In this document: positions 36,065 to 55,956 of the stretch, piece after piece
Position numbering within the stretch: the stretch's first letter is position 1
Layout of the letters: the number at the start of each line of letters is the position of its first letter
NCBI GenBank assembly: GCA_945956935.1
Contig: CAMFJD010000001.1
Location: 1-64,000, forward strand
From: an uncultured Bacillota bacterium
GTDB lineage: Bacteria; Bacillota_I; Bacilli_A; Culicoidibacterales; ZOR0006
Direction: 5' to 3'
DNA length: 64,000 nt
Translations under genes and position numbers: made by a program
The notes under the pieces: model-generated
Database searches by the model: none
What the model saw: the letters and a program-made list of their open reading frames with translations, nothing else
What the model was told of the DNA's origin: nothing

Positions 36065-36550
36065 ATTATGTAAAGGAATGTGATAATAGGAATAATTGAT
36101 AAACACTATAAAAAATATGTATAAAACTATATAGAGAGATGAAAGGAATATTCTTTTCTAAAGAAAAAGAAAAATGCCTAAAATAAAGAGCTGAAAGATT
36201 TTTAAATAAAAGATGAATAAAAAAATAAGTTAATAGTTAAGTACAAAGAAATTAGTACATAAAATAAAAAGAGAAAAAAAATATGAATATTTAAAGACAA
36301 AAGATCCAGATTTAAAAATGAGTGTTCATAGTTATATAGATGAGTAAATGGAAATATACAAAATGAAAATAAGAAAACATTCAGAAAATATTAGATAGAA
36401 ATATATTGATAATCTCGAGTGTGAGCGTATAATACTTACCATGACGAGAGCGAATAACAGGTAGTAAATATAATAATTAGCTTGCTGTTATAACAATCGC
36501 ATAACCGAATACTAATCTTTCAAATGAGAAAATTTTAGGAGGGGACATTT
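36065..36550. other. A-rich upstream region of surface operon A
   Basis: About 490 bases, very rich in A on the + strand, with no gene. The first 340 bases show nothing supportable. The operon promoter is at 36406-36433, leaving a leader of about 110 bases before the ribosome site TAGGAGGGG. Confidence 0.5.
36406..36433 (+). promoter_or_regulatory. Promoter of surface operon A
   Basis: TTGATA, 16-nt spacer, TATAAT; the only good promoter between the thrS terminator and the first SipW-substrate gene. Confidence 0.65.
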
Positions 36551-37339
36551 ATGAAAATGAACAAAAAATATCTTATTGGTACAGGAGTCGTTGTAGCAGT
36601 GTTAGCAGTTGGTGGGACAGCAGCGTTCTTCACATCTACAGATTTTATTAGTAACCCATTCCAAACAGGATCAACTGATATTCCAACAGATCCGAACGCG
36701 GGTATCAAAATTTGGGAAAAATTTAATACTGATTTAGTATATAAAGATTATGACCCACTCATTGGTCCAGAAGCAGCAAAAGAAGTACTGCCAGGTGAGG
36801 CGATTAATAAAGATGTACAAGTACGGAGTAACGCTAATTATAATCAATTTGTACGTGCAAATTATACGGTTGTAGGTTATACAGCAGTAATTAATAATGT
36901 TGAAACAGTTGTGAAATCAGTCTGGACAGATAAAGTATTAACTGATCCATCAACTAAAATTATAGGGTATAAAACAGATACAGGAACAAATGTAAAAGCT
37001 GATGGATCGGCACTTACAACAGCTGGTCTAATCGAAAACCCATTAGATATAGCTCTGATTAGTGTAACGTTGAAACCTTCAGGAACAACTGGTGAAACAT
37101 GGACGACAAAACAAAGTGATGGATGGTATTACTATAATCAAATTCTTGCACCTGATGCAGGAACAACTGATTTACTTGACTCAGTAACATTAGCAGGATC
37201 AGCATCTAACATTTATAAAGGTCTAGGGTATAAAGTGAATGTAAATGCTAACTCTATTCAAGCTACAGATGCAGCTTGGACAGCATGGCCTGGTGTTGGA
37301 ACAAAACCAACGGTTATTGATTCAACAGTGAATAATTAA
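36551..37339 (+). CDS. TasA/camelysin-like SipW-dependent exported protein (operon A, gene 1)
   Basis: A 262-residue secreted protein with a SipW-type signal: a hydrophobic stretch (8-25) ending GGTAAFFTSTDFISNPFQTG, the pattern that marks SipW substrates such as TasA and camelysin (aromatic near the cleavage region, then N-x-F-x-x-G). The mature part has LPGEAINKDVQVRSNANYNQFVR, a beta-sandwich-like core, DGWYYYNQIL and VNANSIQATDAAW, all shared with its paralogue at 42340. No cysteine, no anchor. A strong ribosome site and a hairpin directly after the stop suggest it is the most expressed gene of the operon, probably the main fibre subunit. Function inferred from family and context. Confidence 0.8.
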   Translation: MKMNKKYLIGTGVVVAVLAVGGTAAFFTSTDFISNPFQTGSTDIPTDPNAGIKIWEKFNTDLVYKDYDPLIGPEAAKEVLPGEAINKDVQVRSNANYNQFVRANYTVVGYTAVINNVETVVKSVWTDKVLTDPSTKIIGYKTDTGTNVKADGSALTTAGLIENPLDIALISVTLKPSGTTGETWTTKQSDGWYYYNQILAPDAGTTDLLDSVTLAGSASNIYKGLGYKVNVNANSIQATDAAWTAWPGVGTKPTVIDSTVNN

Positions 37340-37350
37340 AGTAGACGAAT

Positions 37351-37392
37351 AAGGCGAAGGCTTGCTCGAATTAGTGAGCAAGCCTTCGCCTT
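37351..37392 (+). terminator. Hairpin after gene 1 of operon A
   Basis: A perfect 17-bp stem (37351-37367 with 37376-37392) with an 8-nt loop and only a short, broken T-run. It probably attenuates transcription into gene 2 or protects the 3' end of the gene 1 mRNA. The equivalent position in operon B also has a hairpin. Confidence 0.8.
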
Positions 37393-37423
37393 TCATTCTT
37401 TCATGAAGAAAGGAGGGTGACAT

Positions 37424-38083
37424 ATGAAATTCGTAAAATATTTCAAATACATAGGCTTTTTACTAGTATGTATTTTGATACCGAGCAGCGTTGTAGCGAA
37501 TTCAGGGGTTTTACCACCAACGATTGAATTGATTGGGGATGCGAAGGAATTATCGTTTACGGAGAGCAATGAACCTGGATTTCTACACGAATCAACATTT
37601 TTACCAGGAAATTCAATTGAGCGTACATTGATAATTAGAAATGAAAAAAATGTGGCTTTTCGTCTAAGTTTTGAGCTTGAGAGAACAGCTGCTAAACCAT
37701 CTGATGTGGATTTATTGAGTAAGATAAATATTCAAATTTATGAAGGTGATAAGCTGCTTTGTACAGGTATAATAGATGAAAATAATTGTGATAATCGCCA
37801 GTTTTATGCAACGCTCAATCCAGGAGATGTGAGAGAGCTGCGGATGATTGCCACTTTTAATGAAGATGCTGGAAATGAGTACAAAAACAAAAAAGATCAA
37901 TATGATTGGATTTTTGATGCGGTTGTTGCGACAGTACCAAGTACTGGAAAACCAACAGTACCAACGTTGATACCAACAACGGGAAATCCATTAGTAGATA
38001 CGGGTTTGTTTGCATTAGAGATAGTTGTTTTAGGTGGTGCACTACTTATAGGTAGTCAGTATCTGTTAAAACGAAAAAAATAA
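37424..38083 (+). CDS. Sec-exported, C-terminally anchored surface protein (operon A, gene 2)
   Basis: A 219-residue protein with a classical signal peptide (hydrophobic 10-25, cleavage near VVANS), an extracellular domain, and a C-terminal membrane helix (196-213) with a KRKK tail. Ahead of the helix are LIPTTG (182-187) and LVDTG (190-194), sorting-signal-like but not a strict LPxTG. The domain includes FLPGNSIERTLIIRNEKN and a conserved Cys pair (Cys113, Cys122) in LLCTGIIDENNCDNRQFY, probably a disulfide. It is closely paralogous to the protein at 43314. No sortase is encoded in the window. It may be a membrane- or wall-anchored base for the fibre. Confidence 0.75.
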   Translation: MKFVKYFKYIGFLLVCILIPSSVVANSGVLPPTIELIGDAKELSFTESNEPGFLHESTFLPGNSIERTLIIRNEKNVAFRLSFELERTAAKPSDVDLLSKINIQIYEGDKLLCTGIIDENNCDNRQFYATLNPGDVRELRMIATFNEDAGNEYKNKKDQYDWIFDAVVATVPSTGKPTVPTLIPTTGNPLVDTGLFALEIVVLGGALLIGSQYLLKRKK

Positions 38084-38115
38084 AATAAAAAATGTTCAGA
38101 GAGGGGGTATTTACG

Positions 38116-38751
38116 ATGAGAATGCGATGGATAAAAAACAAAAAAATTCAAATAATGCTAGGAATTTTCGTAATGTTAGTTACTGTTGCAACGATTCCAA
38201 CAATTTTAAGTTACTTAACAAGTAGAGATAGTATTGTGAACCCGTTTAAGCTCGGAACAGTTGATGTAGAAATTAAAGAAATTTTTCCAGTACCAACGGA
38301 GATAAATCCTTGGGAAGGTCAAACATGGACAAAAAATGTTTCGATTGAAAATAAAGGTACACAAAAATCTTTGATTCGTGTAGCAATTGTTCCAAGATGG
38401 GAAAATATAGACGGCACACCATTTGCGGGAGATACGAGCTTGCTAATATTAACATTGCAAAATATGAATACAACACCAGGATGGGTCGATGGAAAAGACG
38501 GATATTATTACTATACTGAAAAAGTAATCACCGGGGGAGTAACGCTTCCAGTATTGGCAACGGTAGCATTAGATAGCGAGAAAATAGATGGTAATATTCA
38601 AAAAAGATATGCTAATAAAAAGTTAATTGTTGATGTACAAGCAGAAGCTGTACATGCATATCAACCAGCATATGAATCTGTCTGGTCAACGATGGCGAAA
38701 AGTGGTTCGACAACAGATTTAATGTTAGAAGCACTCATTGCAACACCTTAA
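38116..38751 (+). CDS. Second SipW-type exported protein (operon A, gene 3)
   Basis: A 211-residue protein beginning MRMRWIKNKK with a hydrophobic segment, then the SipW-type motif ILSYLTSRDSIVNPFKLG followed by TVDVEI. The mature domain has the family features SIENKGTQKSLIRVAIVPRW, PGWVDGKDGYYYYTE and VQAEAVHAY. It is shorter than gene 1 and lacks cysteines and an anchor. I chose the ATG at 38116, after GAGGGGG; earlier in-frame codons overlap that site. Paralogue at 43948. By analogy with TasA/TapA it could be a minor subunit or assembly partner; this is inference. Confidence 0.75.
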   Translation: MRMRWIKNKKIQIMLGIFVMLVTVATIPTILSYLTSRDSIVNPFKLGTVDVEIKEIFPVPTEINPWEGQTWTKNVSIENKGTQKSLIRVAIVPRWENIDGTPFAGDTSLLILTLQNMNTTPGWVDGKDGYYYYTEKVITGGVTLPVLATVALDSEKIDGNIQKRYANKKLIVDVQAEAVHAYQPAYESVWSTMAKSGSTTDLMLEALIATP

Positions 38752-38768
38752 AGAAGGGAGGAACAGAC

Positions 38769-41306
38769 ATGTTACAGAAAAAAATGTCAATTATTTCATT
38801 ATTCACAGTTGTTGGAGTTGTTGGACAGTTGCTTTTACATGTATTTTCTTCAGTTATACTGGTTTTAGCAATGTCATCAATCAATATAGAGAATATTGAA
38901 AATAATGTATCATACACCCAAGATGGGATAGGTATTGAACAAGAAGCAAAAAAGCTTTCTGAAACACAAATAGAAGTGACAACGAAAGTGAAGACAACCG
39001 AAGAACTATCACAAATACTATTAATTCAAACACCACAAGAACAGTTTAATTTACAACATGATCCGAGTGTTATTCAAGTTGATGAAATACAAATAGATAT
39101 ATCAAAAGTTGAGTTATCTAATTTACCAGTTAATATAGAAGATAGTTCAATAACATTGAATTTAGAAAATAGTACAGTTGATATAAAAAGCGAAAATACT
39201 ATTTTTTTAAGTAGTGAATCAGAACAAACATTGCTTTTAGTTGGTAAGAACTTACAGGCGAATAAAGTATATGCGTTCACTGTAATATACGATATAAACG
39301 CTAATTCGAATCCGGCTGAGTTATCATTATTCAAGTCTGAAACACTACAGTATCAATCGGTGAATTCGATGAATGATTTGAAAAAAATTGATATATCAAC
39401 AATGTCGCCAAGTATTACTTTAACTACACCACAAGATGCAACATCACAAGAAGCGGAAAAACCAAATGATCCATCAATTGATGTACCATCAACACCTGAT
39501 GATAGTATATCAGAAGGAAGTTCTATTGTTGAATCACCCGGACAAGATACAGTTGACTATGGAATAGTTCTCCCCGAAAAAGAATCCGAAATTTTTCCAG
39601 CAATTGCTTCATTCACACCATTGGTAGAAAATGATTTAGGACTAGAAAAAACGGCAACATTGCAATCAAACGGTGAATATGTTGTTAATTTGACTGTTAA
39701 TGGAAATCCAACAATTGTTCCACCTACTGAGGTTGATATTGTTATGATTCTAGATGATTCAGGGAGTATGGCTGGAACAAGCTTAACTAATTTGAAAATA
39801 GCAGCTAAGAATTTTGTTACAAGCTTAGTCACTACAGATACAGATGTACGTATTTCATTACTACGATTTAATACGAATGCAACCCTTTATCAAGGTTGGT
39901 CATCTAATGCATCAGATTTAAATACGAAAATCGATGCTATTACAGCGGCTGGTGGGACAAACACACAGGATGCATATATTAAGGCAAATACACAACTTAA
40001 AACTGCGAGAACAGGTGCTCAAAAGTACATCATTTTATTTACAGATGGATTTCCAACATTTTATAATCAACCATGTAACGTTGGGACAACTAATCCATAT
40101 TTAGGAAGTTTAGGTGTGTGTGGACCTGGTGGAAATACAACCGCAGTTGAAATAAGTAAAACTATTACTGCATATAATACGTTAGTTTCAGATAACTATG
40201 GTGTAGAGACGTATGCTATTGGTTTATTTACGACTTCAGATGCAAATGCCCAAGCAACGGCGAAAGGCTTGTTATATCAATTACAAAATCAAGAAACAAC
40301 ACAACAAGCATACTCGGATAAATATTTTACAAATAATCCGACGACATTGAACACAATATTTACAAATTTAGCGACTACGATAAAAGGTAAAATTTATACA
40401 GAAATGGCATATAAAACGTACATAAGTGATGTTGTTACAGGACAATTTTCATTGGCGAGCAATCCTAACTTTAGATATATCAATCATCTAGGGCAAACCG
40501 TTACTTTAACAGAGGTCAGTGGAACACCGGACGTTGGACAAGTACAGAGAGTAAAAGTAAAATGCGACAATATATCAACACCAGGAACTACTACAGATGA
40601 TTGTGATAAAATTGTTGTAAATTTAGGGACTATTCAGACGCCGAAAATTCAAGTGCTATTTAATGTAAAAGCACGTGATCCATATTATGGATCTTATTCG
40701 GGTGGAACAGACACAAATATTCGTGCAGATATATCATTTACAGGGATTTTGGATAATTTACTCTATAATAGAGAGTTTCCAATTCCAAAAGTAGATCTCC
40801 CATTTATTCAGGGGAGTATAACAGTAGTGAAAGATATTAATAATTATAATTCAGATCAAAAGTTTAATATATTGGTTGAAGGTGTCAATACAACTCAGAA
40901 ATTTGGATTCGATGTACAAGAAGGAGTAGCTAATAGCGAGGTGCTACAATTTTACTTGAAAGATGTAAATACGGATATTCAGCCAAATATTGATTATTCT
41001 AAAGGATATGTAACAATAGGACAGTTCACAGTAAAAGAAATTGTGCCGGAAAATTATGAATTAGTATCTGTTCAATACTGTTATGATAGTAATGCAACAA
41101 CAGCGGGATGCCAAGGAACATGGCAAAGTGGTAATTTTACACTCAATAAAGATACACCACATATATACATACTTGTGACAAATAAAGTTGTCAATAATAC
41201 ATATTGGTACGATAGAGCAGAACTTGAGAATAATTTGCCATATACATATCTTGAACCTGTGGTGGCGTGGTTAAGCAGAAAAGATGAGAATTTAGACATA
41301 GCATAA
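38769..41306 (+). CDS. Large von Willebrand A surface protein with SpaA-like C-terminus (operon A, gene 4)
   Basis: An 845-residue secreted protein: signal sequence (about 1-37), an N-terminal beta-rich region, a Ser/Pro/Asp linker (about 220-260), one vWA domain with an intact MIDAS (DDSGS at 329-333, GGTNTQ, FTDGFP), and a C-terminal region like SpaA/Cna-B (ITVVKDINN, FTVKEIVPENY, then ILVTNK). Cys pairs occur in the vWA loop, before the SpaA part (VKCDN/DDCDK) and within it (QYCYDS/AGCQG). There is no LPxTG, no C-terminal helix, and the tail ends in a WYD-containing segment shared with the paralogue at 44587. Probably an adhesive tip or fibre-associated adhesin. GGGAGGA precedes the ATG. 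Confidence 0.8.
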   Translation: MLQKKMSIISLFTVVGVVGQLLLHVFSSVILVLAMSSINIENIENNVSYTQDGIGIEQEAKKLSETQIEVTTKVKTTEELSQILLIQTPQEQFNLQHDPSVIQVDEIQIDISKVELSNLPVNIEDSSITLNLENSTVDIKSENTIFLSSESEQTLLLVGKNLQANKVYAFTVIYDINANSNPAELSLFKSETLQYQSVNSMNDLKKIDISTMSPSITLTTPQDATSQEAEKPNDPSIDVPSTPDDSISEGSSIVESPGQDTVDYGIVLPEKESEIFPAIASFTPLVENDLGLEKTATLQSNGEYVVNLTVNGNPTIVPPTEVDIVMILDDSGSMAGTSLTNLKIAAKNFVTSLVTTDTDVRISLLRFNTNATLYQGWSSNASDLNTKIDAITAAGGTNTQDAYIKANTQLKTARTGAQKYIILFTDGFPTFYNQPCNVGTTNPYLGSLGVCGPGGNTTAVEISKTITAYNTLVSDNYGVETYAIGLFTTSDANAQATAKGLLYQLQNQETTQQAYSDKYFTNNPTTLNTIFTNLATTIKGKIYTEMAYKTYISDVVTGQFSLASNPNFRYINHLGQTVTLTEVSGTPDVGQVQRVKVKCDNISTPGTTTDDCDKIVVNLGTIQTPKIQVLFNVKARDPYYGSYSGGTDTNIRADISFTGILDNLLYNREFPIPKVDLPFIQGSITVVKDINNYNSDQKFNILVEGVNTTQKFGFDVQEGVANSEVLQFYLKDVNTDIQPNIDYSKGYVTIGQFTVKEIVPENYELVSVQYCYDSNATTAGCQGTWQSGNFTLNKDTPHIYILVTNKVVNNTYWYDRAELENNLPYTYLEPVVAWLSRKDENLDIA

Positions 41307-41316
41307 GTACAATGTG

Positions 41317-41346
41317 GGGGAATATTATCTTTAATATTCCCCTTTT
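41317..41346 (+). terminator. Terminator of operon A
   Basis: GGGGAATATT/AATATTCCCC with a 6-nt loop and T4, between the vWA gene and sipW. Confidence 0.85.
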
Positions 41347-41455
41347 AAAATTGCATGATTTTTTAGAAATCTATATCTATTTTTAAGGACAGAAGAAATT
41401 TACTAGAGGTATACTTGGTCAGGACTATTGTATTTATATGAAGGAGGTGGAATTT

Positions 41456-41932
41456 ATGCAAAAAAGATGGGATATAGTTTTGACAGGCATAGTCGTGATA
41501 GCTGTAGGCTTATTTTTAGCACTAGCATTAGGATGGTTACCAATAAAAGCACATATAGTTTTATCAGGGAGCATGGAACCAACTATTCCAACAGGTAGTC
41601 TTGTATTCTCGACAACAATTAATCCCGAAAAACTCGAAGTTGCAGATGAACTTGTATTTCAAGTAGGTGGATCTGTTGTGACGCATCGAATTGTAGAAAT
41701 ACATACTAATTCAGATAATACACGAGAATTTGTGACGCGAGGAGATGCAAATAATACGAATGATGCGACAGCAATCAATCAAAATCAAGTGATTGGGAAA
41801 GTAATCGGACATATACCTATTATAGGGAAGATATTATTATTCATTCAACAAAATTTATTAATATCAACTGTAATTATAGTAGTAACTATTTTAGGAAGCT
41901 CAGCAATCATTGAACGATGGAAAAAATCATAG
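41456..41932 (+). CDS. sipW: SipW-type (ER-type) signal peptidase I
   Basis: A 158-residue membrane signal peptidase with N- and C-terminal membrane helices (about 8-25 and 128-150). The catalytic serine is in VLSGSMEPTIPTG (Ser39), and the general base is His77 (THRIVEI) instead of the lysine of ordinary bacterial signal peptidases: the archaeal/eukaryotic-type arrangement that defines SipW. The RGDANN motif completes the site. SipW enzymes process TasA-like proteins, and four such substrates flank this gene. The ATG at 41456 follows GAAGGAGGTGG. Terminators on both sides suggest an independent transcript shared by operons A and B. Confidence 0.93.
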   Translation: MQKRWDIVLTGIVVIAVGLFLALALGWLPIKAHIVLSGSMEPTIPTGSLVFSTTINPEKLEVADELVFQVGGSVVTHRIVEIHTNSDNTREFVTRGDANNTNDATAINQNQVIGKVIGHIPIIGKILLFIQQNLLISTVIIVVTILGSSAIIERWKKS

Positions 41933-41940
41933 TTGAGAAG

Positions 41941-41969
41941 AAGGCACTTTAAAACAGTGTCTTTTTTTT
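41941..41969 (+). terminator. Terminator of sipW
   Basis: AAGGCACT/AGTGTCTT stem with T8, directly after the sipW stop. Confidence 0.85.
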
Positions 41970-42339
41970 GAAAAAACTTTCTGTTTAATAAAAGGATGGG
42001 CTATCTTAAGAGTGACATAAAATAAAAAATAAGATAAAAAAAGTTGATTTAGCTATTCATTTTATTTCTATAATCGAATAACAAATTAAGATGATGTATT
42101 TCACTATTTGATAATAAAAGTAAAATTTTATATTTGGATAATCATGAGAAACAAGACACAAATGTGAAGAAATAACTACGGTCATATTTATGTTTTTTTC
42201 AATAAAAAGAAATTGGTTGTAAAGGACAATAGAAAGAATGCTGAGTATACTGAAAAAGATTCCTTACTGAAAGAAGTAGATTGAAAAATAAAACAACGAA
42301 GAAAAGGAAGAGAAAAACTTTATAGGAGGTCATTTTAGC
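41970..42339. other. A-rich upstream region of surface operon B
   Basis: 370 bases without a gene, A-rich like the region before operon A. A TTGATT...TATAAT pair near 42045-42075 has a 19-nt spacer, so it is only a weak promoter candidate. TATAGGAGG precedes the next gene. Confidence 0.45.
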
Positions 42340-43239
42340 ATGACAAGTAACAAAAAACGTATTGTAATAACTTCAGCCGTTGCGGCAACATTATTTATTG
42401 GTGGGACAGCAGCATTTTTTACATCAAGTGACTTAATTACCAATATCTTCCAAACAGGAACAACGAAAACCGATAACCAAAATGAAGGAATCGATGTGAA
42501 TGAAAATTTCATCGGTAAAACACCCGGTCCAGATGGTATTTTCGGAACTTCAGACGATGTAACAGTGACATTTGATAATATTATTGATCCTGCTAAAGCA
42601 GGAGAAACAGTAGTAACAGTAGGGGACAATGGTTCTTATATTTCTGGAAATGGATCGACATATGTTCCAAATGCAAACGGAACATTTGATATTATTGCAC
42701 CGGATGGAACAAATACAGGTGGTAAAGCAATTGTTCAACCATCAACAGATCGTGATGGAAAGCCGATTTTCATCGTCGGACCCGCTGAAGTATTACCAGG
42801 GCAACTGTTTACAAAAGAAGTAGGAATTGATAGTGAAGCAAATTATAATCAACTTGTTCGTTCGAAATCAATTGTGACAATTTCTTCTTTGCCAGCAGGA
42901 AAAACTGAGGCAGAAGCATTACAGTATATTGATATTACATATAATTTAAATCGAGCAACGACAAATGGAATGGATGGTCAGTGGATTGGAACCGAACCAT
43001 CATCAACGACACTAGAAAGCGATTGGTTCTATTATAGTAAGGTATTAGGTCCAAGCCCAGCAAGAACGGCCGACGTTATTAAATCAGTACAATTAAAATC
43101 AGATGCACCAAACTGGATGAAAAATGTACAATTTACTGTATCAATTCAAGCAGAGAGTATTCAAGCGTCAGCAGATGTTTGGACAACAACATGGGGGAAA
43201 GCTTTGGCAGAATTACCAACAGAAGTAGACGGACAGTAA
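42340..43239 (+). CDS. TasA/camelysin-like SipW-dependent exported protein (operon B, gene 1)
   Basis: A 299-residue paralogue of the protein at 36551. The signal region ends GGTAAFFTSSDLITNIFQTG, nearly identical to that of operon A. Shared mature features are VLPGQLFTKEVGIDSEANYNQLVR, SDWFYYSKVLGP and VSIQAESIQASADVW. It has extra sequence of roughly 80 residues after the signal, starting TPGPDGIFGTSDDV, an Asp/Gly-rich motif that resembles calcium-binding repeats in other surface proteins, followed by YVPNANGTFDI. No cysteine and no anchor. Likely the main subunit of a second, related fibre. Confidence 0.8.
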   Translation: MTSNKKRIVITSAVAATLFIGGTAAFFTSSDLITNIFQTGTTKTDNQNEGIDVNENFIGKTPGPDGIFGTSDDVTVTFDNIIDPAKAGETVVTVGDNGSYISGNGSTYVPNANGTFDIIAPDGTNTGGKAIVQPSTDRDGKPIFIVGPAEVLPGQLFTKEVGIDSEANYNQLVRSKSIVTISSLPAGKTEAEALQYIDITYNLNRATTNGMDGQWIGTEPSSTTLESDWFYYSKVLGPSPARTADVIKSVQLKSDAPNWMKNVQFTVSIQAESIQASADVWTTTWGKALAELPTEVDGQ

Positions 43240-43246
43240 GTATGTG

Positions 43247-43284
43247 AGCACAAGTTACTTGAAAAAAGGTAGCTTGTGCTTTTC
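43247..43284 (+). terminator. Hairpin after gene 1 of operon B
   Basis: AGCACAAGTTAC pairs with GTAGCTTGTGCT (one G-U) around a 10-nt loop, followed by TTTT. It is the counterpart of the hairpin at 37351-37392, although the two stems share no sequence. Confidence 0.8.
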
Positions 43285-43313
43285 CGAATTTTAGCGGAAG
43301 GGAGTTTAGAATC

Positions 43314-43958
43314 ATGAAACAACTGTTCAATATTTTCTGTGTGTTTGGGATACTTTTGCGATTTTTTGTAATGCCAGTATACGCACAGCAAAGCGAATTA
43401 CCTATGACGATTGAATTGATTGGAGATGCTGTAAATCTATCGTTTACAGAGACAGAAGAAATCGGATTTGTTTATGACGGAGTCTTTTTACCAGGTGAAT
43501 CGGTGAAAAGAGTGTTGAAAATAAAAAATGAAAAAAATGTACCGTTTAGGCTGAGTTTTGAATTAGAGCGCGTATATTCAGATGTTGAGTATGATCTATT
43601 AGAAAAAATCAATATTGAAATATATGAAGGAGATGCTTTGCTATGTACAGGAGTTATTGATGAAAATAATTGTAATCAACGGCAATTTTATGTTGAGCTG
43701 AATCCAAATGATGAGCGTGAGTTAACGATGATTGCAACACTTTCTCTAGATGCAGGAAATGAATATAAAAATAAATATGCACAATATGATTGGATTTTTG
43801 ATGCTGTAGTTACAAAAATACCGACAACAAATAATTTATTGGTGAATACGGGTGCATATGCTGTAGAACTCATAACTGTAGGTGTATTGATAATGGGATT
43901 TTCTTTTTTAACTTCAAAAATACGAAATAAAAAAGGAGAAAAAAAACGTGAACAATAG
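43314..43958 (+). CDS. Sec-exported, C-terminally anchored surface protein (operon B, gene 2)
   Basis: A 214-residue paralogue of the protein at 37424 with the same layout: signal peptide (to about YAQQS), domain with FLPGESVKRVLKIKNEKNVPF, a Cys pair (Cys111, Cys120) in LLCTGVIDENNCNQRQFY, then LVNTG (176-180), a membrane helix (182-200) and a long basic tail. Where operon A has LVDTG this one has LVNTG at the same place before the helix. The preceding IPTT is also shared. GGAAGGGAG precedes the ATG. The stop overlaps gene 3 by 11 bases, so the two are translationally coupled. Confidence 0.75.
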   Translation: MKQLFNIFCVFGILLRFFVMPVYAQQSELPMTIELIGDAVNLSFTETEEIGFVYDGVFLPGESVKRVLKIKNEKNVPFRLSFELERVYSDVEYDLLEKINIEIYEGDALLCTGVIDENNCNQRQFYVELNPNDERELTMIATLSLDAGNEYKNKYAQYDWIFDAVVTKIPTTNNLLVNTGAYAVELITVGVLIMGFSFLTSKIRNKKGEKKREQ

Positions 43959-44559
43959 AATAAAAGCGTATGTGATTTTAGGACTAGTTTTGACCGTCTT
44001 CGTTACACTTATGATAGTTCCGTCTACGATGAGTTTTTTTAGTAATCGTGATGAAATAACAAATATTGTAGATAGTGGAAGTGTTGATATAGAAATCGTT
44101 GAAAAATTTATCCCACCGGCAACTTGGGATGGAATGAAGTATGAAAAGCAAGTTATGGTCAAAAATATTGGGAATAAGCAAGCAATAATTCGAGTTGCAC
44201 TACACCCATACTGGCTAGAAAAAGATGGCGTGACTCCATTTGCGGGTGATGTATCATTTATTCAAATGAATACTGTGAATATCGGTACTCAACCAGGGTG
44301 GATTGATGGAAGAGATGGTTATTATTACTATAATGCTCTTGTTGAGAGTGGACAAGAGACAAAAAAATTACTGGAATCATTGGAAACCAAAATTCCTGAA
44401 GAACTTTCAAAGAGATATATAGATAAACAAATAAATGTCGATGTGAAAGCAGAAGCAATTCAAGCAGACATTGAAACATATACAAAAGTATGGGTATCAT
44501 TATCTCAAAGTAATAGTGAAATCGATAGCTACTTGAGAATATTAATGAAACAAAGGTAA
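43948..44559 (+). CDS. Second SipW-type exported protein (operon B, gene 3)
   Basis: A 203-residue paralogue of the protein at 38116. It starts at a GTG, with AAAGGAG upstream, inside the end of gene 2. After the hydrophobic segment comes the SipW-type motif MSFFSNRDEITNIVDSG and VDIEI. The mature part has VMVKNIGNKQAIIRVALHPYW, PGWIDGRDGYYYYNA and VDVKAEAIQ, matching its counterpart. No cysteine, no anchor. Predicted minor subunit or assembly partner of the second fibre. Confidence 0.75.
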   Translation: MNNRIKAYVILGLVLTVFVTLMIVPSTMSFFSNRDEITNIVDSGSVDIEIVEKFIPPATWDGMKYEKQVMVKNIGNKQAIIRVALHPYWLEKDGVTPFAGDVSFIQMNTVNIGTQPGWIDGRDGYYYYNALVESGQETKKLLESLETKIPEELSKRYIDKQINVDVKAEAIQADIETYTKVWVSLSQSNSEIDSYLRILMKQR

Positions 44560-44586
44560 TACAATGAGAAAAGGAGGAAATTAACT

Positions 44587-47500
44587 ATGTTGCGTACAAT
44601 AATATCTAAAATATCGGCATTTATAGCAATGATTTTTATAATTCAACCAGGAATAATGGTCTATGCCAGTGTAGAAGCATCGACAAAAGAGACAGTAGAG
44701 ATTATGCGTGTTCAAAGTGCAGATCCTTTTACACTTGTAGATGGTCAAATAAATATTAGTCAAGTGGCTGAATATGTATCTCCAAATCAATTATCTGTAG
44801 AAATCACACTGCAAGCATTAGAAAATGAAGATGAGTTACCCTTTGTGATGAATCAGCAAGTGTCTTCATTACTATCTGTTGACACTTCAACATATAAGAT
44901 TATTGATTCTGAAGGGCAATTAATAGAAGTAGAGAATGTAGAGACTGGTATACTAAGTGAGCCATTTGATACAGATTGGAAAATTGCTATGACTGAGTCG
45001 AATGAAATGAAAATGAGCGGTAAGTTAGTTGGATCAAAAGCCATAAAGATAACATACCAGGTATCTGTATCTTCGAATCAAACAGTTGGTGAAGAACACA
45101 TTTTCATTAAGAGTGAGATGCAATATAAATATAAAGATGAAGTAAGAGAGATAGATTTTATTGAATTGAATCCAGTTGTTGAATTAGGTGAAGGGATCGG
45201 TGAAAACAAGGATGTAAATACTGATGTAACGATTGCTGACAATGGAAAAGACTCTGCAATTGTCACTGAAGAAAAAGAAAATATGATAAGTGAAAGTGTG
45301 GAGTCATCAGAAATAACACCAGCACCCAAAGTACGCACTGCACGCTCAGTGTCAAATACAGTAATGTCAGATGTAAATACGACAACCACAACTAACGCTA
45401 ATGGGGACAATACATATACAGTTCAGTATAGTTTATCGGGGAACCAAGCAAACGTACAAGTACCGATAGATATTGCAATTTTGATAGATCGTACATCAAG
45501 TATGGGGCAACAGGGCTATGGATCAAATTCGTATATAAAAACAGCCATTGATCAATTGAATAGTATGTTATCAGATATGACTGCTTACTCTCAAAGTATA
45601 AGGTATAAAGTGTATAATATAGGTGGTTCATCAGCGAGTGCATGTACCGGAGGAATTGGGGCGAAGAGTGGATTTGGTGTAGGAAAATCTGCAGCAACGT
45701 ATATAAATCATATGACAACACAATCATGTAATGGTAATGATGTCACTAATTTAACATCAGCCTTAACAACTGTATATAATGATTTAGAGGGACCGAGTAC
45801 AAGTTTTTATGCAAAACGTGCAGATGCACAGCAAGTGATACTTATGTTAACGGATGGGGTAAGTAACCAAAATACTACAGGTCTTAATACGGCAATAAAT
45901 AATTTGAAAGCAATTAAGACAACTGTAAATGGTCAAAGTACGGCATTACAATGGTATACTGTAGGAATGAGGCCACTAACTGCCACAACAAATGAAGCAG
46001 CAATCCGGTCAACTTTGTTTCAGATGAATACAGCTTTTACAACACAAGGAGATTATGAGAGGAAAAGCCTTGTGACAGGAGGAACTGTTGAATTAGCAAA
46101 TGCACAAACATCACAAATTTTAAAAAGAGTCCAGATGTATATTGCCAATAATGTAGCTCAAAAAGCAAAATTGAATATGACTTTAAGTAGTGATTTTCAG
46201 TATGTGAGCATTCAAGATGAGATGAATGCACAAATAAATTATAGTGAAATTCCACACGTGTATGGTGTTACCTGGGGAATGAAAGTTACACCGAAAGCTA
46301 ATTTGAAACCGGGAACGTATCGCGTAGATCAAGGTCAAACAACGATAACCTATCAAGACGTTGAGGGTGTATCTAAAATAATAAATATTCCACCATTGTA
46401 TATGACTATTACAGCTCCGCCAAAAACGGATTTGAAAATAGATAAAACAGCAACAAAAATTGAAAAAAATTATCAACTAAATTTATCGGTAAATGGAAGT
46501 GAATCGAGTCAAAAAGCAGATATTGTTGTGATTTTAGATCGTTCTGGGAGCATGAGTGGCGAAAAAATGACAGCATTAAAAAGTGCGGCGAATAACTTTG
46601 TGGATGTTATGTTAGGTGGGAATGACTTAGATGTACAAATGTCATTAGTAACATTTGCAAACTCGGCAACTGCTGATCAGTATTGGACAGCAGATGCCAC
46701 AAAAGTGAAAGAACACATTGATAACACAATTGCAAGTGGTGGAACTAATACCGAAGCTTCTTATATAGAAGCGTTAAATTATTTGAAAACAGCCAGAAAA
46801 GATGCTCAAAAATATGTCGTTATGTTTACGGATGGATTACCGACATTTTATATTGATTCTAACGGTGCTATTGGTGGGAATGGGTCAGCTACGACCACTA
46901 CCGAAGTAACTAATACTAAAGAAGCATATAATAGTATTTTGACAACATATCCTCAGACACAGATGTATTCAATCGGCTTGTTTAGTGGTGCAACAGATAA
47001 TACAGCACAGCAATTACTATTTGACATGCAAAATCAAGAAACAAATCGCACAACGTATGTATCAAAATATTATACGAGCAATTCTCAGTCATTACAGCCA
47101 ATTTTCACGGCAATTGCGAATATTATTAAAACTCGAATTAGTGTATATGCAACGAATACTTTAATTTCTGATACTGTAGCATCGAATTTTGTTCTTGTAC
47201 CAAATAGTAGTGTTTATTATGTAAATCATTTAGGAGAAAAAATACAACTGAAGCAAGTTGTAACAACACCAAAAGTTGGAGAAGTACAATTAATAAAAGA
47301 TACTTGTAATGGTTTAATTCTAACTGAGACGAATCCAGCAATTTGTGATAAAATTATCGCTAATGTGGGAGATTTGGAAGTAGGTGGTGGAGTATTGACC
47401 CTGGAAATACAGTTAAGAGATGAGTCTTTTTTTGGTGAAGATATTCCCACAAATTCACAAGCAACGATTGAGTATACAGATATTAAAAACCAAAATAAAG

Positions 47501-49128
47501 TCCAAGAATACCCTATTCCAGTAGTAGATATAGAGCGAATAGAAGACCAGGCTGAGAGTTTATTTAACAAGGTTGCAAAAAAACTAGAAAATAATACTTA
47601 TGAAATTGAATTAAGTGTATCGGGAATGGTTGATACGCTTAAACATCAAAATTCAAAAATTGTACTTGCATTTGATACATCTGAAGGGAACACGAGATTA
47701 GCAGAACAAAAGCAGTTAGCATTGACATTTATTGAAAAAATATTGAAAGAAGATAGTGATAATAGACATAGTATACAGATTATAGCTTTCAATGAAGTAT
47801 CTAACAGTGTGTCTACTGGCTTTATGCGTGATATACAGTCATTAACTCAGGTGCTAAATAATATGAAAAATTCAACAAATAAAATGAGGAATTTTTCTGG
47901 TGCATATCAATTAGCAAATTACCAATTGATAACATCAACAAAGCAAGATCCAACGGCATTACGGTCATTAATTTTATTTTCGGGTGGAGTTGCAACAGAA
48001 TCGCAAGAAATAGTAAAAAATAGCTATAACGCTATATTTGCACAAAATTCTATGAGTGTAACATCAGTGTATACGTTGGGGCTTTTACCCTCTTCTACGA
48101 CTGAGTCCGATAGAAAAGCAGCGATAAATTTGTTTTCCATTTTACAAAATAGTGTACCGCCAAGTGATTATGAAAAAACTTTTTATCCACTGGAATCAGA
48201 TTTGATAAAAAATAAAAGTTTGGAAAAAGCGTTGATTAAAGTATCTGAAATGATATATAGAAAAGTGTATGATGTGGTAGCGTACGAAGCAAGAATTGAA
48301 GACATTGTTACGGAGCAGTTTAGAATAATAGAGAATAGTTGGCGCGTGAACGGATTAAGTGAAAAACAAGATATAATATATACTTCAGGAAAAGAAGATC
48401 ATATCCAAGCAGAATTAGGTTTTGTGCCAGAATATGATGGAAATGGTAATAAAAATATAGTGACGCTAAAGTTTTTAATTGAGCCACGGAATGAGTATTA
48501 TGGAACAAACACACCAATAGATACAAATATAAGTGCTTCATATAATTATATTGATCCCGTTTCAAATAAAGAAGTAGTGAAAACAAAAGAAAGTCCTAAG
48601 GTAACAGTAGACTATCAAGTGGGAAGTATTACAGTTGAAAAACAAACAGATGTAGCAACGGAAAAAACATTTGATATTCAAATACTAGGGGCGAGTGATA
48701 ATAATCAACAACAATTTAATTTCTCAGTTCAAAAAAACAAAGCAAAAACTATGCATTTTTATTTGCGTGATTCGAAAACGGATATAACACCTAATGTTGA
48801 TTTTTCTAAACCATATGTTACAATAGGTGAATTTATGGTGAAAGAAATTATACCACAAAATTATCAACAACAGAGCATTGAGTATTGTTATGACAGTGAT
48901 CAAATAAATAAAGATTGTCAAGGAGTTTGGAAAACGTATACTAATCACTCTAAAATAATGATAGATAAAGAACATGCACATATATTTATCAGAGTCTGGA
49001 ATAAAAAAACAAATGATAGCCGATGGTATGATGATACAAATGTGACGAATATACTGAAATATAATCGAGTGTATGAACATACAACAACGTATGCATTATC
49101 GAAACAAGAGGATGAATATGTAGCATAA
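44587..49128 (+). CDS. Very large multi-vWA surface protein with SpaA-like C-terminus (operon B, gene 4)
   Basis: A 1513-residue secreted protein, expanded relative to its operon A counterpart. After the signal and an N-terminal beta-rich region, it has three vWA-like modules: one with a variant MIDAS (DRTSS, 301-305), one with a canonical MIDAS (DRSGS, 651-655, plus SGGTNTE and FTDGLP), and one degenerate (DTSEG, 1030-1034). A SpaA/Cna-B-like C-terminal region (ITVEKQTDV, FMVKEIIPQNY) contains the Cys pair EYCYDS/KDCQG, and the tail has the WYD segment. There is no LPxTG or C-terminal helix. The second vWA aligns best with operon A. Likely adhesin or fibre tip. GGAGG precedes the ATG. Confidence 0.8.
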   Translation: MLRTIISKISAFIAMIFIIQPGIMVYASVEASTKETVEIMRVQSADPFTLVDGQINISQVAEYVSPNQLSVEITLQALENEDELPFVMNQQVSSLLSVDTSTYKIIDSEGQLIEVENVETGILSEPFDTDWKIAMTESNEMKMSGKLVGSKAIKITYQVSVSSNQTVGEEHIFIKSEMQYKYKDEVREIDFIELNPVVELGEGIGENKDVNTDVTIADNGKDSAIVTEEKENMISESVESSEITPAPKVRTARSVSNTVMSDVNTTTTTNANGDNTYTVQYSLSGNQANVQVPIDIAILIDRTSSMGQQGYGSNSYIKTAIDQLNSMLSDMTAYSQSIRYKVYNIGGSSASACTGGIGAKSGFGVGKSAATYINHMTTQSCNGNDVTNLTSALTTVYNDLEGPSTSFYAKRADAQQVILMLTDGVSNQNTTGLNTAINNLKAIKTTVNGQSTALQWYTVGMRPLTATTNEAAIRSTLFQMNTAFTTQGDYERKSLVTGGTVELANAQTSQILKRVQMYIANNVAQKAKLNMTLSSDFQYVSIQDEMNAQINYSEIPHVYGVTWGMKVTPKANLKPGTYRVDQGQTTITYQDVEGVSKIINIPPLYMTITAPPKTDLKIDKTATKIEKNYQLNLSVNGSESSQKADIVVILDRSGSMSGEKMTALKSAANNFVDVMLGGNDLDVQMSLVTFANSATADQYWTADATKVKEHIDNTIASGGTNTEASYIEALNYLKTARKDAQKYVVMFTDGLPTFYIDSNGAIGGNGSATTTTEVTNTKEAYNSILTTYPQTQMYSIGLFSGATDNTAQQLLFDMQNQETNRTTYVSKYYTSNSQSLQPIFTAIANIIKTRISVYATNTLISDTVASNFVLVPNSSVYYVNHLGEKIQLKQVVTTPKVGEVQLIKDTCNGLILTETNPAICDKIIANVGDLEVGGGVLTLEIQLRDESFFGEDIPTNSQATIEYTDIKNQNKVQEYPIPVVDIERIEDQAESLFNKVAKKLENNTYEIELSVSGMVDTLKHQNSKIVLAFDTSEGNTRLAEQKQLALTFIEKILKEDSDNRHSIQIIAFNEVSNSVSTGFMRDIQSLTQVLNNMKNSTNKMRNFSGAYQLANYQLITSTKQDPTALRSLILFSGGVATESQEIVKNSYNAIFAQNSMSVTSVYTLGLLPSSTTESDRKAAINLFSILQNSVPPSDYEKTFYPLESDLIKNKSLEKALIKVSEMIYRKVYDVVAYEARIEDIVTEQFRIIENSWRVNGLSEKQDIIYTSGKEDHIQAELGFVPEYDGNGNKNIVTLKFLIEPRNEYYGTNTPIDTNISASYNYIDPVSNKEVVKTKESPKVTVDYQVGSITVEKQTDVATEKTFDIQILGASDNNQQQFNFSVQKNKAKTMHFYLRDSKTDITPNVDFSKPYVTIGEFMVKEIIPQNYQQQSIEYCYDSDQINKDCQGVWKTYTNHSKIMIDKEHAHIFIRVWNKKTNDSRWYDDTNVTNILKYNRVYEHTTTYALSKQEDEYVA

Positions 49129-49145
49129 GATAGTTAATAGTAAAA

Positions 49146-49179
49146 TAAAAACGGCTATAGTGTGGAATAGCCGTTTTTA
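49146..49179. terminator. Bidirectional terminator between operon B and the lipoprotein gene
   Basis: AAAACGGCTAT/ATAGCCGTTTT stem with T-runs on both strands, between convergent genes. Confidence 0.88.
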
Positions 49180-49229
49180 TTAAAGATTATAAGGGCGATA
49201 TAGACGTAGTTTCATTTCTAGTAGTACAG

Positions 49230-49637
49230 TTAATTTTTAGAATATGACGTTTCCGATTCAGGCTGAGGATTATCAGCATTATTTTCAATAGGCGATTCTT
49301 TATCAGCGGTGACGTCAGTTTTATCATTTGGCGGAGTAATTGATTCGCTTGGAGGATTATCAGCATTATTTTCAATAGGCGATTCTTTATCAGCGGTGAC
49401 GTCAGGTTTATCATTTGACGGAGTAATTGATTCGCTTGGAGGATTATCAGCATTATTTTCAGTTGATGAGTTTTTATCTGTAGATTCTATAGTTGTGGTA
49501 TCGTTCGCTTGATTTTGAATATTTTCAGAATTCACTTCATGTTGAGGCGTAGAATTAGAATTGTTTATATTGGATCCACAGCCAGATAATGAAACAACTA
49601 ATATGAAACAAATTGATAAAGTAAATACTGTCTTCAT
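49230..49637 (-). CDS. Small repeat-containing lipoprotein
   Basis: A 135-residue predicted lipoprotein: basic start, hydrophobic signal and a lipobox SLSGC with Cys20. The mature part is low-complexity, rich in Asn, Glu, Asp, Pro, Ser and Thr, without aromatic residues until the end. It includes nearly three copies of a 29-residue repeat (ENNADNPPSESITP...DKPDVTADKESPI). It looks like an extended spacer or a disordered surface stalk, and no fold is recognised. GGGGGAG precedes the ATG. It has its own promoter and lies convergent with operon B; the conjugative transposon is inserted about 130 bases upstream of it. Confidence 0.75.
   Translation of the reverse strand: MKTVFTLSICFILVVSLSGCGSNINNSNSTPQHEVNSENIQNQANDTTTIESTDKNSSTENNADNPPSESITPSNDKPDVTADKESPIENNADNPPSESITPPNDKTDVTADKESPIENNADNPQPESETSYSKN
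49266..49460. repeat. 87-bp tandem repeat inside the lipoprotein gene
   Basis: The sequence beginning AGGATTATCAGCATTATTTTC recurs at an exact 87-base period (49266, 49353, 49440), encoding a 29-residue repeat. The first two copies are nearly identical, which points to recent expansion or slippage. Confidence 0.9.
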
Positions 49638-49942: not shown

Positions 49943-51160
49943 CTAAGCAACAAGACGCTCCTGTTGCTTCTCTTTATTCAAGCGTTTCATTTCTGCCATT
50001 GCAGAATCGAATGTTGCATGTGCGTAATAGTTCAGCGTCATGGCTATATTAGCATGTCCCATAATGTACTGTAATGCCTTTGGATTCATTCCTGCATTTG
50101 CATAGTTGGTACAGAATGTATGTCGCAAACTATGTGGAGTGATGTGTGGCAATTTATCCTCGTTATACTTATTGTATTTCTTAACAAGACCTTTCATCAT
50201 GCCGTTGTAATCACTTGCCACTTTTGGATAGTTCTTTCTATTAAGAAAGAGGAAATCACTATATCCATCAATCTCAACACGCTTATCATTCTTTCGATTC
50301 GCTAACACTCGCTTAAATGCTTGATAGGCTTCTTCAACCATAGGAACTTGACGTTCGCCACTTTTGGTCTTTGGTGTTTCAATGTAGTACCCAATTTCAG
50401 TATCTCTCAATAGCTGATGGTCTATATTGACAAGACGATTCTCAAAATCTAAATCTGGAAGTGTCAAACCACCAAACTCTGAAATACGAAGACCTGTTTT
50501 TAAGAGTATCAGAATTTCATCATAATTTTTGCTGTAGGTTTTATCAGCTTTTGCAAAGGCTAACAGTTTTTCTTCCTGTTCTTCTGTTAGTACGGTCTTA
50601 GGGACAGTATCATCATCAAGAACTGCTTTCAGTTGAAAGTCAAATGGATTCTTCCGAACACAATCATCTTGTATAGCAATATAGAATGAAGCCTTTAAAG
50701 AACGTTTGTAGTTATTGATGGTTTGATAAGCATAACCATTTTCACTCATTCTAATAGCCCATTCTTTAGCGTCTGATGGCTTAATACTGTCAATACTTCT
50801 TACACCTAACTTGTCTTTCTTCAAAATATCCATAAGATATTTGCGTCCAGTTTCAGTGTTTTTTCTAACCTTTGGTCTTTGAGCGTTCTGTTTTGCGTAA
50901 AGCTGGCAGAGTGTCATTTTCTTTCCTACAACATCAATACCATCATGAATGTCTTTCTGTAACTCTGCGATTTTCTCTCTAAGTGAGATACAATCACGCT
51001 TTCCTGCTGGTACTCGGTCTGTAGCCACAAGTTTCCACGAGTAAACAAATTGCGGTTCTCCAAATGAATCTATATATTTGTATAAGTATCTTCCGTCTTT
51101 TCGTTGGCTCTCTCCAGTCTTTAAGATTCGACCTTTATTGTCACGTCTTTTTTCTGACAT
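49943..51160 (-). CDS. int: Tn916-type tyrosine integrase
   Basis: Excises and integrates the element through staggered cuts and a 6-bp coupling sequence. The 405-residue protein is the full Tn916 length: N-terminal arm-binding domain (1-75), core-binding domain, then the catalytic domain with Arg225 (TGLRISE), HSLRH (His343, Arg346), GHANIAM (His369) and nucleophile Tyr379 (LNYYAH). The arm-type repeats it binds lie just beyond its stop. xis is 81 bases upstream on the same strand. Confidence 0.97.
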   Translation of the reverse strand: MSEKRRDNKGRILKTGESQRKDGRYLYKYIDSFGEPQFVYSWKLVATDRVPAGKRDCISLREKIAELQKDIHDGIDVVGKKMTLCQLYAKQNAQRPKVRKNTETGRKYLMDILKKDKLGVRSIDSIKPSDAKEWAIRMSENGYAYQTINNYKRSLKASFYIAIQDDCVRKNPFDFQLKAVLDDDTVPKTVLTEEQEEKLLAFAKADKTYSKNYDEILILLKTGLRISEFGGLTLPDLDFENRLVNIDHQLLRDTEIGYYIETPKTKSGERQVPMVEEAYQAFKRVLANRKNDKRVEIDGYSDFLFLNRKNYPKVASDYNGMMKGLVKKYNKYNEDKLPHITPHSLRHTFCTNYANAGMNPKALQYIMGHANIAMTLNYYAHATFDSAMAEMKRLNKEKQQERLVA

Positions 51161-51241
51161 GGCATTTGCTCCTTTCCTTTATGGAAAGAGCCTTGATACG
51201 ACTTAATACTATTTTATCATATACAAGACCCTTTGGCGACG

Positions 51242-51445
51242 CTAGATTGCGTCCAATGTATCTATAATTTTTTCAAATTGTTTTCGTTTAATCTGAATAC
51301 GATTGCCATTCATAATCAGCCAATTTGCATTTTTATTTTCCTCTGCCAAGCGTCGTAGCTTGTTTTCGCCAATACGAAAATATTTTGACGCTTCTTCAAT
51401 GGTTAGGGTATAACGTTCCCAAATAGGAATGTCAGTCTGCTTCAT
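51242..51445 (-). CDS. xis: Tn916-type excisionase
   Basis: A 67-residue basic winged-helix protein that stimulates excision by binding near the ends of the element and directing Int. It contains [20 protein letters not shown], a MerR-like helix-turn-helix, then a C-terminal [13 protein letters not shown]. Size and position next to int match Tn916 Xis. AGGAGG precedes the ATG. Confidence 0.95.
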
Positions 51446-51680
51446 AAAATCCTCCTTTCCAAATCACTTATTTGGATTTCATAAAAGTTGTTTTACCAGC
51501 AATCGAACAGCTTTAGCAAAGCTCACGGGAGTTCCACCCCTGCATGGTTCTCATGTAGCCATACTCATTGCCTGCGACGGTTTTATCACGCTCGGACTAT
51601 TGACTGTATGGGAGTATCATTATCACGATAAGAATGTCGTTGCAGGCAATCCTGCTAAAGATTGCTTCTCGGATCACTAA
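51429..51680 (+). CDS. Doubtful small ORF opposite the xis start (Tn916 orf5-like position)
   Basis: An 83-codon frame on the opposite strand, overlapping the first bases of xis. The product has no recognisable domain, and an obvious ribosome site is lacking. Its size and position fit what older Tn916 maps call orf5, as I recall, but it may not be expressed. Confidence 0.25.
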
Positions 51681-51905
51681 CATGAATCGCTCGCTATCTT
51701 TATAAGATAGGTCATGGCGGTTAGTTCCGTTGGCTCTTTTCTTATCGAAACGTATTCGATTACTTTTATTCAGTTTTCAAAGAACAATGGCTCGTTAGCC
51801 TATCAAAACACATTGAAAGCTCAATATGCTTTGGTGGAATAACAAACCTCCCTGTTCGGGAAGCGTGGAATGGTTTAGCACGCTTCCACGAAAGGAGAGA
51901 GGATA
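51446..51905. other. xis-orf8 intergenic region of the transposon
   Basis: 460 bases between orf8 and xis. A hairpin GGAAGCGTG/CACGCTTCC (about 51859-51889) lies just past the orf8 stop, without a T-run. Otherwise only the doubtful small ORF at 51429-51680 is seen. Transcripts passing from tet(M) and orf7-orf8 into xis-int must cross this region. Confidence 0.5.
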
Positions 51906-52136
51906 TTACTTAATTTCAAATGACAAAATCTTTGTAATCAGTCTGGTTTCCATTCTTCCACGTAAGACTTCATCAACGACCATACTTTGATTGCCATACT
52001 CATCTTTCATCAGTCTAAGAGAGCGTTTTGTAATGTACCCTCTGTAATGATGAAGAATCTGGTTAATCGCTTCTGTATCGCCATCACAAGCCCTTACAAT
52101 CATTGGAAACGGAATTCTGGAATATTCTTTTCTCAT
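51906..52136 (-). CDS. Tn916 Orf8, helix-turn-helix protein
   Basis: A 76-residue protein of the small helix-turn-helix family found in Tn916-type elements (PFPMIVRACDGDTEAINQILHHYRGYI, quoted here only as its start PFPMIVRACDGDTEAI). Its ATG overlaps the orf7 stop by four bases, so the two are translationally coupled. In Tn916, orf7-orf8 transcription is part of the tetracycline-stimulated cascade that drives excision and transfer genes. DNA binding is inferred from the family. Confidence 0.88.
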   Translation of the reverse strand: MRKEYSRIPFPMIVRACDGDTEAINQILHHYRGYITKRSLRLMKDEYGNQSMVVDEVLRGRMETRLITKILSFEIK

Positions 52137-52558
52137 TCTTCATTTTCCTCCTCCATAAACTTCTTGATTAAGTCTAGTCCACTGGTTCTATGTCGATAGA
52201 CAGTAGAGCGGTTCAATTTCAGTAAATCCGCTATTTCTGAATCACTCATGTCCATAAAATAGAACAGCAGTAGGATTTCACGCTTCTTGTCTGGCAATTC
52301 TTTTAGTGCTTCACTCAATAAATCATTTTCGATACCAACAGAAATATCATTGAGCGTAAAAATTTGAAAATCAGATGAATAGCTGTCTGTCGTTGCAAAC
52401 TGATTGACGAGATAATCGCCAATATCCGAAAAGGACACTTCACGCTTTGCCAGCCTTGAAAGATAAAGGAAATAATTCTTCCGCTCGTCGTCCATAGCTC
52501 GCATACAGATAAAATCAAACTGATGTTCAATTCTCTCTTGAAAAGAAGATGGTTTCAT
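52133..52558 (-). CDS. Tn916 Orf7, sigma-70-like regulator
   Basis: A 141-residue protein with a sigma region 4-type helix-turn-helix at its C-terminus (MSDSEIADLLKLNRSTVYRH). Orf7 and Orf8 are linked to regulation of transfer in Tn916. I chose the ATG at 52558, seven bases after GGGGGTGAG, over the GTG at 52567 that lies within that site. Coupled to orf8. Reads toward xis and int. Confidence 0.9.
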   Translation of the reverse strand: MKPSSFQERIEHQFDFICMRAMDDERKNYFLYLSRLAKREVSFSDIGDYLVNQFATTDSYSSDFQIFTLNDISVGIENDLLSEALKELPDKKREILLLFYFMDMSDSEIADLLKLNRSTVYRHRTSGLDLIKKFMEEENEE

Positions 52559-53413: not shown

Positions 53414-53439
53414 TTAAAAGAATCCATACATAACGGAAA

Positions 53440-53482
53440 GAGCCGATAAAATGAGATTGTATTAATCTCATTTTATCGGCTC
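53440..53482. terminator. Bidirectional terminator between orf9 and orf6
   Basis: A perfect 19-bp inverted repeat (53440-53458 with 53464-53482) with a 5-nt loop. It lies at the ends of the converging orf9 and orf6 and may limit read-through from tet(M) toward orf7. Confidence 0.85.
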
Positions 53483-55678: not shown

Positions 55679-55693
55679 GTGATTTTCCTCCAT

Positions 55694-55925: not shown

Positions 55926-55956
55926 ATTTATTAACTCCTTTTAAATAGATACTTAA

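Follow-up and report, generated by a model that had tools for sequence, protein, structure and literature searches.

Fibers of TasA and BsaA are usually regarded as biofilm matrix, and sortase-assembled Gram-positive pili have vWA tip adhesins, such as RrgA and GBS104. Here we describe a locus of an uncultured Bacillota bacterium with likenesses to both. It lies in a 64,000-nucleotide stretch of contig CAMFJD010000001.1 (the window), in which two operons, A and B, flank a gene for a SipW-type signal peptidase. Each operon encodes a TasA/BsaA-type protein (gene 1), a C-terminally anchored protein (gene 2), a second TasA/BsaA-type protein (gene 3), and a large secreted vWA protein (gene 4).

In Bacillus subtilis, the tapA-sipW-tasA operon encodes a SipW-dependent TasA-family subunit and an accessory protein that is a possible starter or anchor (PMC9674648, PMC10151520). 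TasA subunits join through N-terminal donor strands, the first of which is proposed to come from TapA (PMC9674648, PMC10151520). The Clostridium perfringens sipW-bsaABCRSD operon encodes SipW, a BsaA-family filament protein, and more secreted proteins (PMC7395162). BsaA forms filaments there, as sodium dodecyl sulfate-resistant extracellular polymers, and its export needs SipW (PMC7395162). A terminator follows bsaA, and read-through yields a longer operon mRNA in addition to a sipW-bsaA mRNA (PMC7395162).

The locus resembles the B. subtilis operon in its putative SipW-dependent TasA-family subunits and its accessory protein. However, SipW acts on TapA, whose C-terminal region is unstructured, whereas the gene 2 product has a signal peptide of the ordinary kind and is anchored at its C-terminus. 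Gene 2 had neither a TapA sequence-family match nor a SipW-type signal, and its likeness to TapA is one of role only. Furthermore, the B. subtilis operon has no vWA adhesin. The C. perfringens operon shares with ours SipW, a BsaA-family protein, additional secreted proteins, and a terminator or hairpin 3′ of the putative shaft gene. Compared by description, it differs in having its own two-component system, BsaRS, and in being the one such operon described. The vWA protein with a possible SpaA-like domain and the putative LPXTG-type base are reminiscent of sortase-assembled pili, but here the operons lack a pilin sortase gene, and the putative shaft subunits carry no sorting signal.

Two paralogous operons around one SipW gene

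All nine open reading frames (ORFs) that the preliminary description had placed here, the eight operon genes and sipW, were found at the positions it gave (Table 1). The order on the + strand is thrS, genes 1A to 4A, sipW, and genes 1B to 4B, with operon A at 36551-41306 and operon B at 42340-49128. BLASTP paired each gene with its counterpart: 29% identity for gene 1 (E 3e-20), 57% for gene 2 (E 1e-78), 39% for gene 3 (E 3e-48), and 38% across 446 amino acids for gene 4 (E 5e-70). DNA repeats of 230 nucleotides (nt) at 74% identity, 114 nt at 73%, and 67 nt at 81% also paired between the operons in one order. Because the protein pairs and the DNA repeats run in the same order, the resemblance goes beyond chance. 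A and B are paralogous gene for gene. This upholds the earlier proposal that a whole operon was duplicated and then diverged, with an insertion in gene 1 (299 amino acids in 1B and 262 in 1A) and extra vWA modules in gene 4 (three stretches in 4B and one in 4A). GC content changes little across the locus, and no third copy was found in the rest of the 1.84-Mb genome.

Table 1. Features of the locus, with positions counted in the window
Feature	Position	Strand	Basis
Promoter-like site 5′ of operon A, TTGATA-16-TATAAT, 11/12	36406..36433	+	Consensus scan
Gene 1A, TasA/BsaA-type putative shaft subunit, SipW-type signal peptide	36551..37339	+	TIGR04090, TIGR04088, PF12389
18-pair hairpin in gene 1A/2A gap, probable attenuator or 3′-end stabilizer	37351..37392	+	Terminator scan
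Gene 2A, anchored, probable TasA-fold putative base subunit	37424..38083	+	Sec signal peptide, Cys113/Cys122, IPTTG...LVDTG, C-terminal transmembrane helix, KRKK
Gene 3A, second TasA/BsaA-type subunit	38116..38751 (ORF list start 38092)	+	TIGR04090
Gene 4A, secreted vWA protein, one vWA, SpaA-like C-terminus, no C-terminal anchor	38769..41306	+	VWA_2, motifs, hydropathy, SpaA_4
SipW-type (endoplasmic reticulum [ER]-type) signal peptidase I, common to both operons	41438..41932	+	TIGR02228, NF046067, Ser/His residues
Gene 1B, TasA/BsaA-type putative shaft subunit with insertion	42340..43239	+	TIGR04090, PF12389, 29% identity to 1A
15-pair hairpin in gene 1B/2B gap	43246..43281	+	Folding energy
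Gene 2B, anchored putative base subunit	43314..43958	+	IPTTN...LVNTG, transmembrane helix, basic tail; 57% identity to 2A
Gene 3B, second TasA/BsaA-type subunit, GTG start, 11-nt overlap with gene 2B	43948..44559	+	TIGR04090
Gene 4B, secreted, three vWA domains	44587..49128	+	VWA_2, motifs
Probable transcription terminator 3′ of operon B, 15-pair stem	49144..49181		Terminator scan; z -5.1 for 49129-49200

The sister species, which alone represented the rest of the genus in the search, has a single operon at the same place 3′ of thrS, with two gene 1 paralogues, genes 2, 3, and 4, and sipW. In a three-way comparison, gene 2 identities were 64% (A and B), 57% (A and sister), and 56% (B and sister), and those of gene 3 were 40%, 55%, and 42%, respectively. 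Trees of genes 1 to 3 placed A, B, and the sister species in an unresolved three-way split. The three are about equidistant, and the duplication is old, close to the time at which the two known species of the genus separated. Between A and B, gene 1 has diverged most and gene 2 least. The gene 1 paralogues of the sister species are in tandem (locus L022, 6504-8570), separated by 490 nt.

The gap between genes 1 and 2 folds into a hairpin in both operons (-39.2 kcal/mol, z -7.0 in A; -26.9 kcal/mol, z -5.4 for 43240-43313 in B). The sister species has one in the same gap (z -6.2), and the three match in place and differ in sequence. The Enterococcus wangshanyuanii operon discussed below also has a gap hairpin (z -3.6). 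Since the bsaA terminator and its read-through in C. perfringens are arranged in a like manner, the hairpin might be used in the same way here, and gene 1 would be the main shaft subunit. The promoter-like site of operon A is among the four best of 75 sites. However, 70.7 sites were expected by chance, and because the total is not above this, the site is suggestive only.

Putative fiber subunits, anchored protein, and adhesin

The signal peptidase gene scored 94.7 bits against TIGR02228 (cut-off, 51.85) and 68.8 bits against NF046067. Ser45 and His83 (SGSM at 43 and THR at 82) replace the Ser-Lys dyad. On both counts it is an ER-type enzyme, and the single SipW gene between the operons is as first described.

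Gene 1A exceeded the cut-offs of TIGR04090 (68.5 bits; cut-off, 60), TIGR04088 (25.1 bits; cut-off, 19), and the Pfam TasA/camelysin model PF12389 (23.1 bits; cut-off, 22.5; E 7.5e-5), and gene 3B exceeded that of TIGR04090 (65.2 bits). Gene 3A (TIGR04090, 47.5 bits, E 1.8e-12) and gene 1B (TIGR04090, 34.9 bits, E 1.3e-8; PF12389, E 5e-4) were below the cut-offs, and we counted them with TIGR04090 because they are paralogues of the passing 3B and 1A. By these profile scores, all four gene 1 and gene 3 products are members or near neighbors of BsaA family TIGR04090. Neither gene encodes a cysteine or a C-terminal anchor in either copy. The BsaA family is SipW dependent, which agrees with the earlier assignment of both products as likely SipW substrates. 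However, gene 3 had been taken for just a small substrate, and by its match it is instead a second TasA/BsaA-family subunit.

Gene 2 had no family match in the Pfam and NCBIfam curated libraries. As described before, its product is anchored and has a cysteine pair, nine residues apart (C113/C122 in A and C111/C120 in B). The C-terminal stretch is IPTTGNPLVDTG in A, IPTTNNLLVNTG in B, and IITTGNPLVNTG in the sister species, followed by a transmembrane helix and basic residues. This is the architecture of a sorting signal (motif, transmembrane helix, basic tail), with LVDTG/LVNTG or IPTTG/IPTTN as a non-canonical motif. Relatives have LPKTG (E. wangshanyuanii), YPRTG (Enterococcus raffinosus), LPRTG (Acetoanaerobium), or VKTGD (three genomes of the class) ahead of a transmembrane helix and basic tail. 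Others have IPDTG or IPKTG, in metagenome-assembled genomes (MAGs), or NPKTN/NPRTN, in MAGs labelled as Saccharibacteria. One sortase gene was found in the genome, on contig C26. NCBIfam EF0750_LPXTG also matched gene 2 relatives (E 9e-4) and pointed to WxL loci of Enterococcus, but this was rejected as a generic sorting-signal match.

Two AlphaFold models of gene 2A were made, the first with relatives from the genome search and the second with sequences from the window and related loci only. Among 350,542 PDB chains, the TasA fiber 8aur ranked first and second for the two models, and the TasA-like archaeal bundling pilus 7ueg ranked third and first, with sequence identities of 7 to 12%. These are the solved fiber structures nearest to the predicted fold. 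Much of residues 19 to 54 had a predicted local distance difference test score (pLDDT) below 50, consistent with a flexible N-terminus. Searches of PDB sequences with the BsaA and gene 2 profiles gave no matches. Gene 2 probably encodes a TasA-fold subunit that carries an anchor, a grade that stops at probable because the structural similarity scores are low (see below). The preliminary description had called it an anchored third component. The anchor stands, but a component apart from the fiber family it probably is not.

Gene 4 was confirmed as a vWA protein gene built into each operon. VWA_2 matched 4A with an E of 2.6e-16, and a full MIDAS-like motif (MIDAS, metal ion-dependent adhesion site) is present (D329, S331, S333, T397, and D426). 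In 4B it matched three stretches (E 9.5e-26), of which the second has a full MIDAS, the first a variant (DRTSS), and the third has lost it. The SpaA-like part of the earlier assignment fared less well, with SpaA_4 matches at the C-terminus (E 0.004 for 4A, 5e-4 for its sister-species counterpart) that were both below the cut-off. The C-terminus had chance-level matches alone among PDB sequences (best E 0.039). Its profile did not match the large proteins of the operons in other groups, and homology of the tail outside the genus was therefore seen by eye only.

Recurrence of the gene set

A gene 2 profile was used to search 395 genomes of the class, an approach free of the bias of starting at BsaA-type (Bsa) genes. 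It found 12 places in 9 genomes, and 11 of them adjoin TasA/BsaA and SipW genes. At the twelfth (in G103), no Bsa or SipW gene occurs in the 1.5 kb of flanking sequence available on either side. The BsaA profiles behind the recurrence counts had seeds without gene 2. A scan of named genomes with the gene 2 sequence alone gave no match, and one for BsaA used a five-sequence alignment. In all, the gene 2 family was seen here at some 20 loci, including Enterococcus plasmids from feces and fermented food.

The arrangement differs between groups. Bacilli MAGs that we labelled RF39-like have large-Bsa-SipW-Bsa-gene 2, in one MAG as two tandem copies; Enterococcus plasmids have SipW-Bsa-gene 2-Bsa-Bsa-large; and Acetoanaerobium has large(vWA)-SipW-Bsa-Bsa-gene 2. 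Three MAGs labelled as Saccharibacteria (loci L069, L080, and L082) have Bsa-SipW-Bsa-gene 2 with the NPKTN/NPRTN anchors; these operons are either genuine in that phylum or on mis-binned contigs. Two genomes (G187 and G194) have four to six Bsa-type genes per operon. At L151 and L152, the operons are expanded to between four and six TasA/BsaA-type genes and have, 3′ of gene 2, a gene for a further protein with a C-terminal transmembrane anchor. Genome G137 (L044 and L056 to L060) has several single genes, on different contigs, in which a BsaA-type domain is joined to an additional long domain.

The large protein varies as well. It has vWA domains here and in Acetoanaerobium, InlB-type repeats in the RF39-like MAGs, and no Pfam match in Enterococcus. 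Because the shaft and anchor are constant while the large protein changes, the latter resembles an exchangeable adhesin. The system is therefore not unique. The preliminary description had not recognized the system by name. Its fiber chemistry belongs to a known type. However, the combination of anchor, shaft, minor subunit, and adhesin turns up again in distant bacteria, and we found no description of it. Literature on SipW with vWA, sortase, Enterococcus, or BsaA comprised the C. perfringens study, work on TasA and TapA, and general reviews, and gave no account of the gene set as a unit, a search of partial coverage and so weak evidence of novelty.

A proposed cell-attached fiber and its alternatives

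We consider it fairly probable that each operon makes one cell-attached, SipW-dependent fiber of the TasA/BsaA type, assembled by donor-strand exchange, in which a base of TasA fold holds the anchor, the shaft is abundant, and the adhesin varies. The products of genes 1 and 3 would leave the cell by way of SipW-type signal peptides, to be cleaved off by the shared SipW. By analogy with TasA and BsaA, gene 1 would then polymerize by donor-strand exchange as the abundant shaft subunit, with gene 3 as a minor one. The hairpin 3′ of gene 1 would keep shaft mRNA above that of genes 2 to 4. From the probable TasA fold, ordinary signal peptide, and C-terminal anchor (sortase-like or membrane), gene 2 would fix and perhaps nucleate the fiber at the surface, a task also proposed for TapA in B. 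subtilis. Its flexible N-terminus may donate the first strand, as TapA is proposed to do, or may take one up. The product of gene 4, secreted without an anchor, would be a vWA adhesin, most likely borne on the fiber via its conserved C-terminus. In the preliminary description, the two fibers would have adhesive tips, perhaps for different ligands. After the operon was duplicated, divergence would have been greatest in the shaft and adhesin and least in the anchor.

Several results weigh against this proposal. The gene 2 motif is non-canonical, whereas other surface proteins of the genome carry LPETG, LPNTG, and LPKTG. Both gene 2A models have low confidence (pLDDT of 60 and 65), and their TM-scores (template-modeling scores) of 0.31 to 0.43 (0.39 to 0.43 to TasA) fall short of the customary 0.5. 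When the gene 2 profile was compared with that of the BsaA set, the two matched weakly and over a short stretch only (probability 1.8, E 0.028). Furthermore, E. raffinosus and Acetoanaerobium have no hairpin at the matching place.

An alternative that we regard as unlikely is that genes 1 and 3 of both operons copolymerize into one mixed fiber, the duplication serving dosage or antigenic variation. A single SipW serves both operons, and mixed fibers may be common because some relatives hold four to six TasA/BsaA-type genes per operon. However, each copy has retained its own anchor and adhesin, and the shaft genes are the most diverged (29% identity), which suggests separate specificities. Slightly less likely still is a loose matrix for biofilms, as with C. 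perfringens BsaA, instead of anchored adhesive fibers, with gene 2 as a membrane-held chaperone or nucleator and gene 4 as a separate secreted adhesin. Polymers of C. perfringens BsaA are found largely outside the cells and need none of BsaB, BsaC, and SrtB to form (PMC7395162), and the non-canonical motif of gene 2 here could mean plain membrane anchoring. Against this, nearly all relatives of gene 2 have a C-terminal anchor, often LPXTG-like, and gene 2 stays beside fiber genes across long evolutionary distances. A camelysin-type secreted metalloprotease system, after the Pfam name Peptidase_M73, is very improbable and was set aside: the PF12389 matches lie mostly over the signal region (residues 9-67 in gene 1A and 9-45 in gene 1B), and the same NCBIfam family includes BsaA, which has a structural role in filaments (PMC7395162).

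More tentatively, and with rather more doubt than conviction, we suggest that cell-attached fibers of this kind form an unnamed, widespread class of Gram-positive pili, with a TasA-type shaft, a sortase- or membrane-anchored TasA-fold base, an exchangeable adhesin, and no pilin sortase, duplicated here to give two specificities. If so, a base that is anchored and probably shares the fold of the shaft, together with a variable adhesin, would be a second Gram-positive route to adhesive pili, parallel to sortase pili and using strand exchange like the chaperone-usher pili of Gram-negative bacteria. The gene 2 family, missing from the curated libraries searched, would gain a testable role.

Directly downstream of operon B lies a Tn916-like conjugative element (49943-64000), identified by eye from translations. 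It includes an integrase gene (49943-51160), a tet(M)-like ribosomal protection gene (53759-55693; 644 amino acids), and conjugation genes up to the window end. Between operon B and this element, 49230-49637 on the - strand encodes a small lipoprotein with near-identical repeats.

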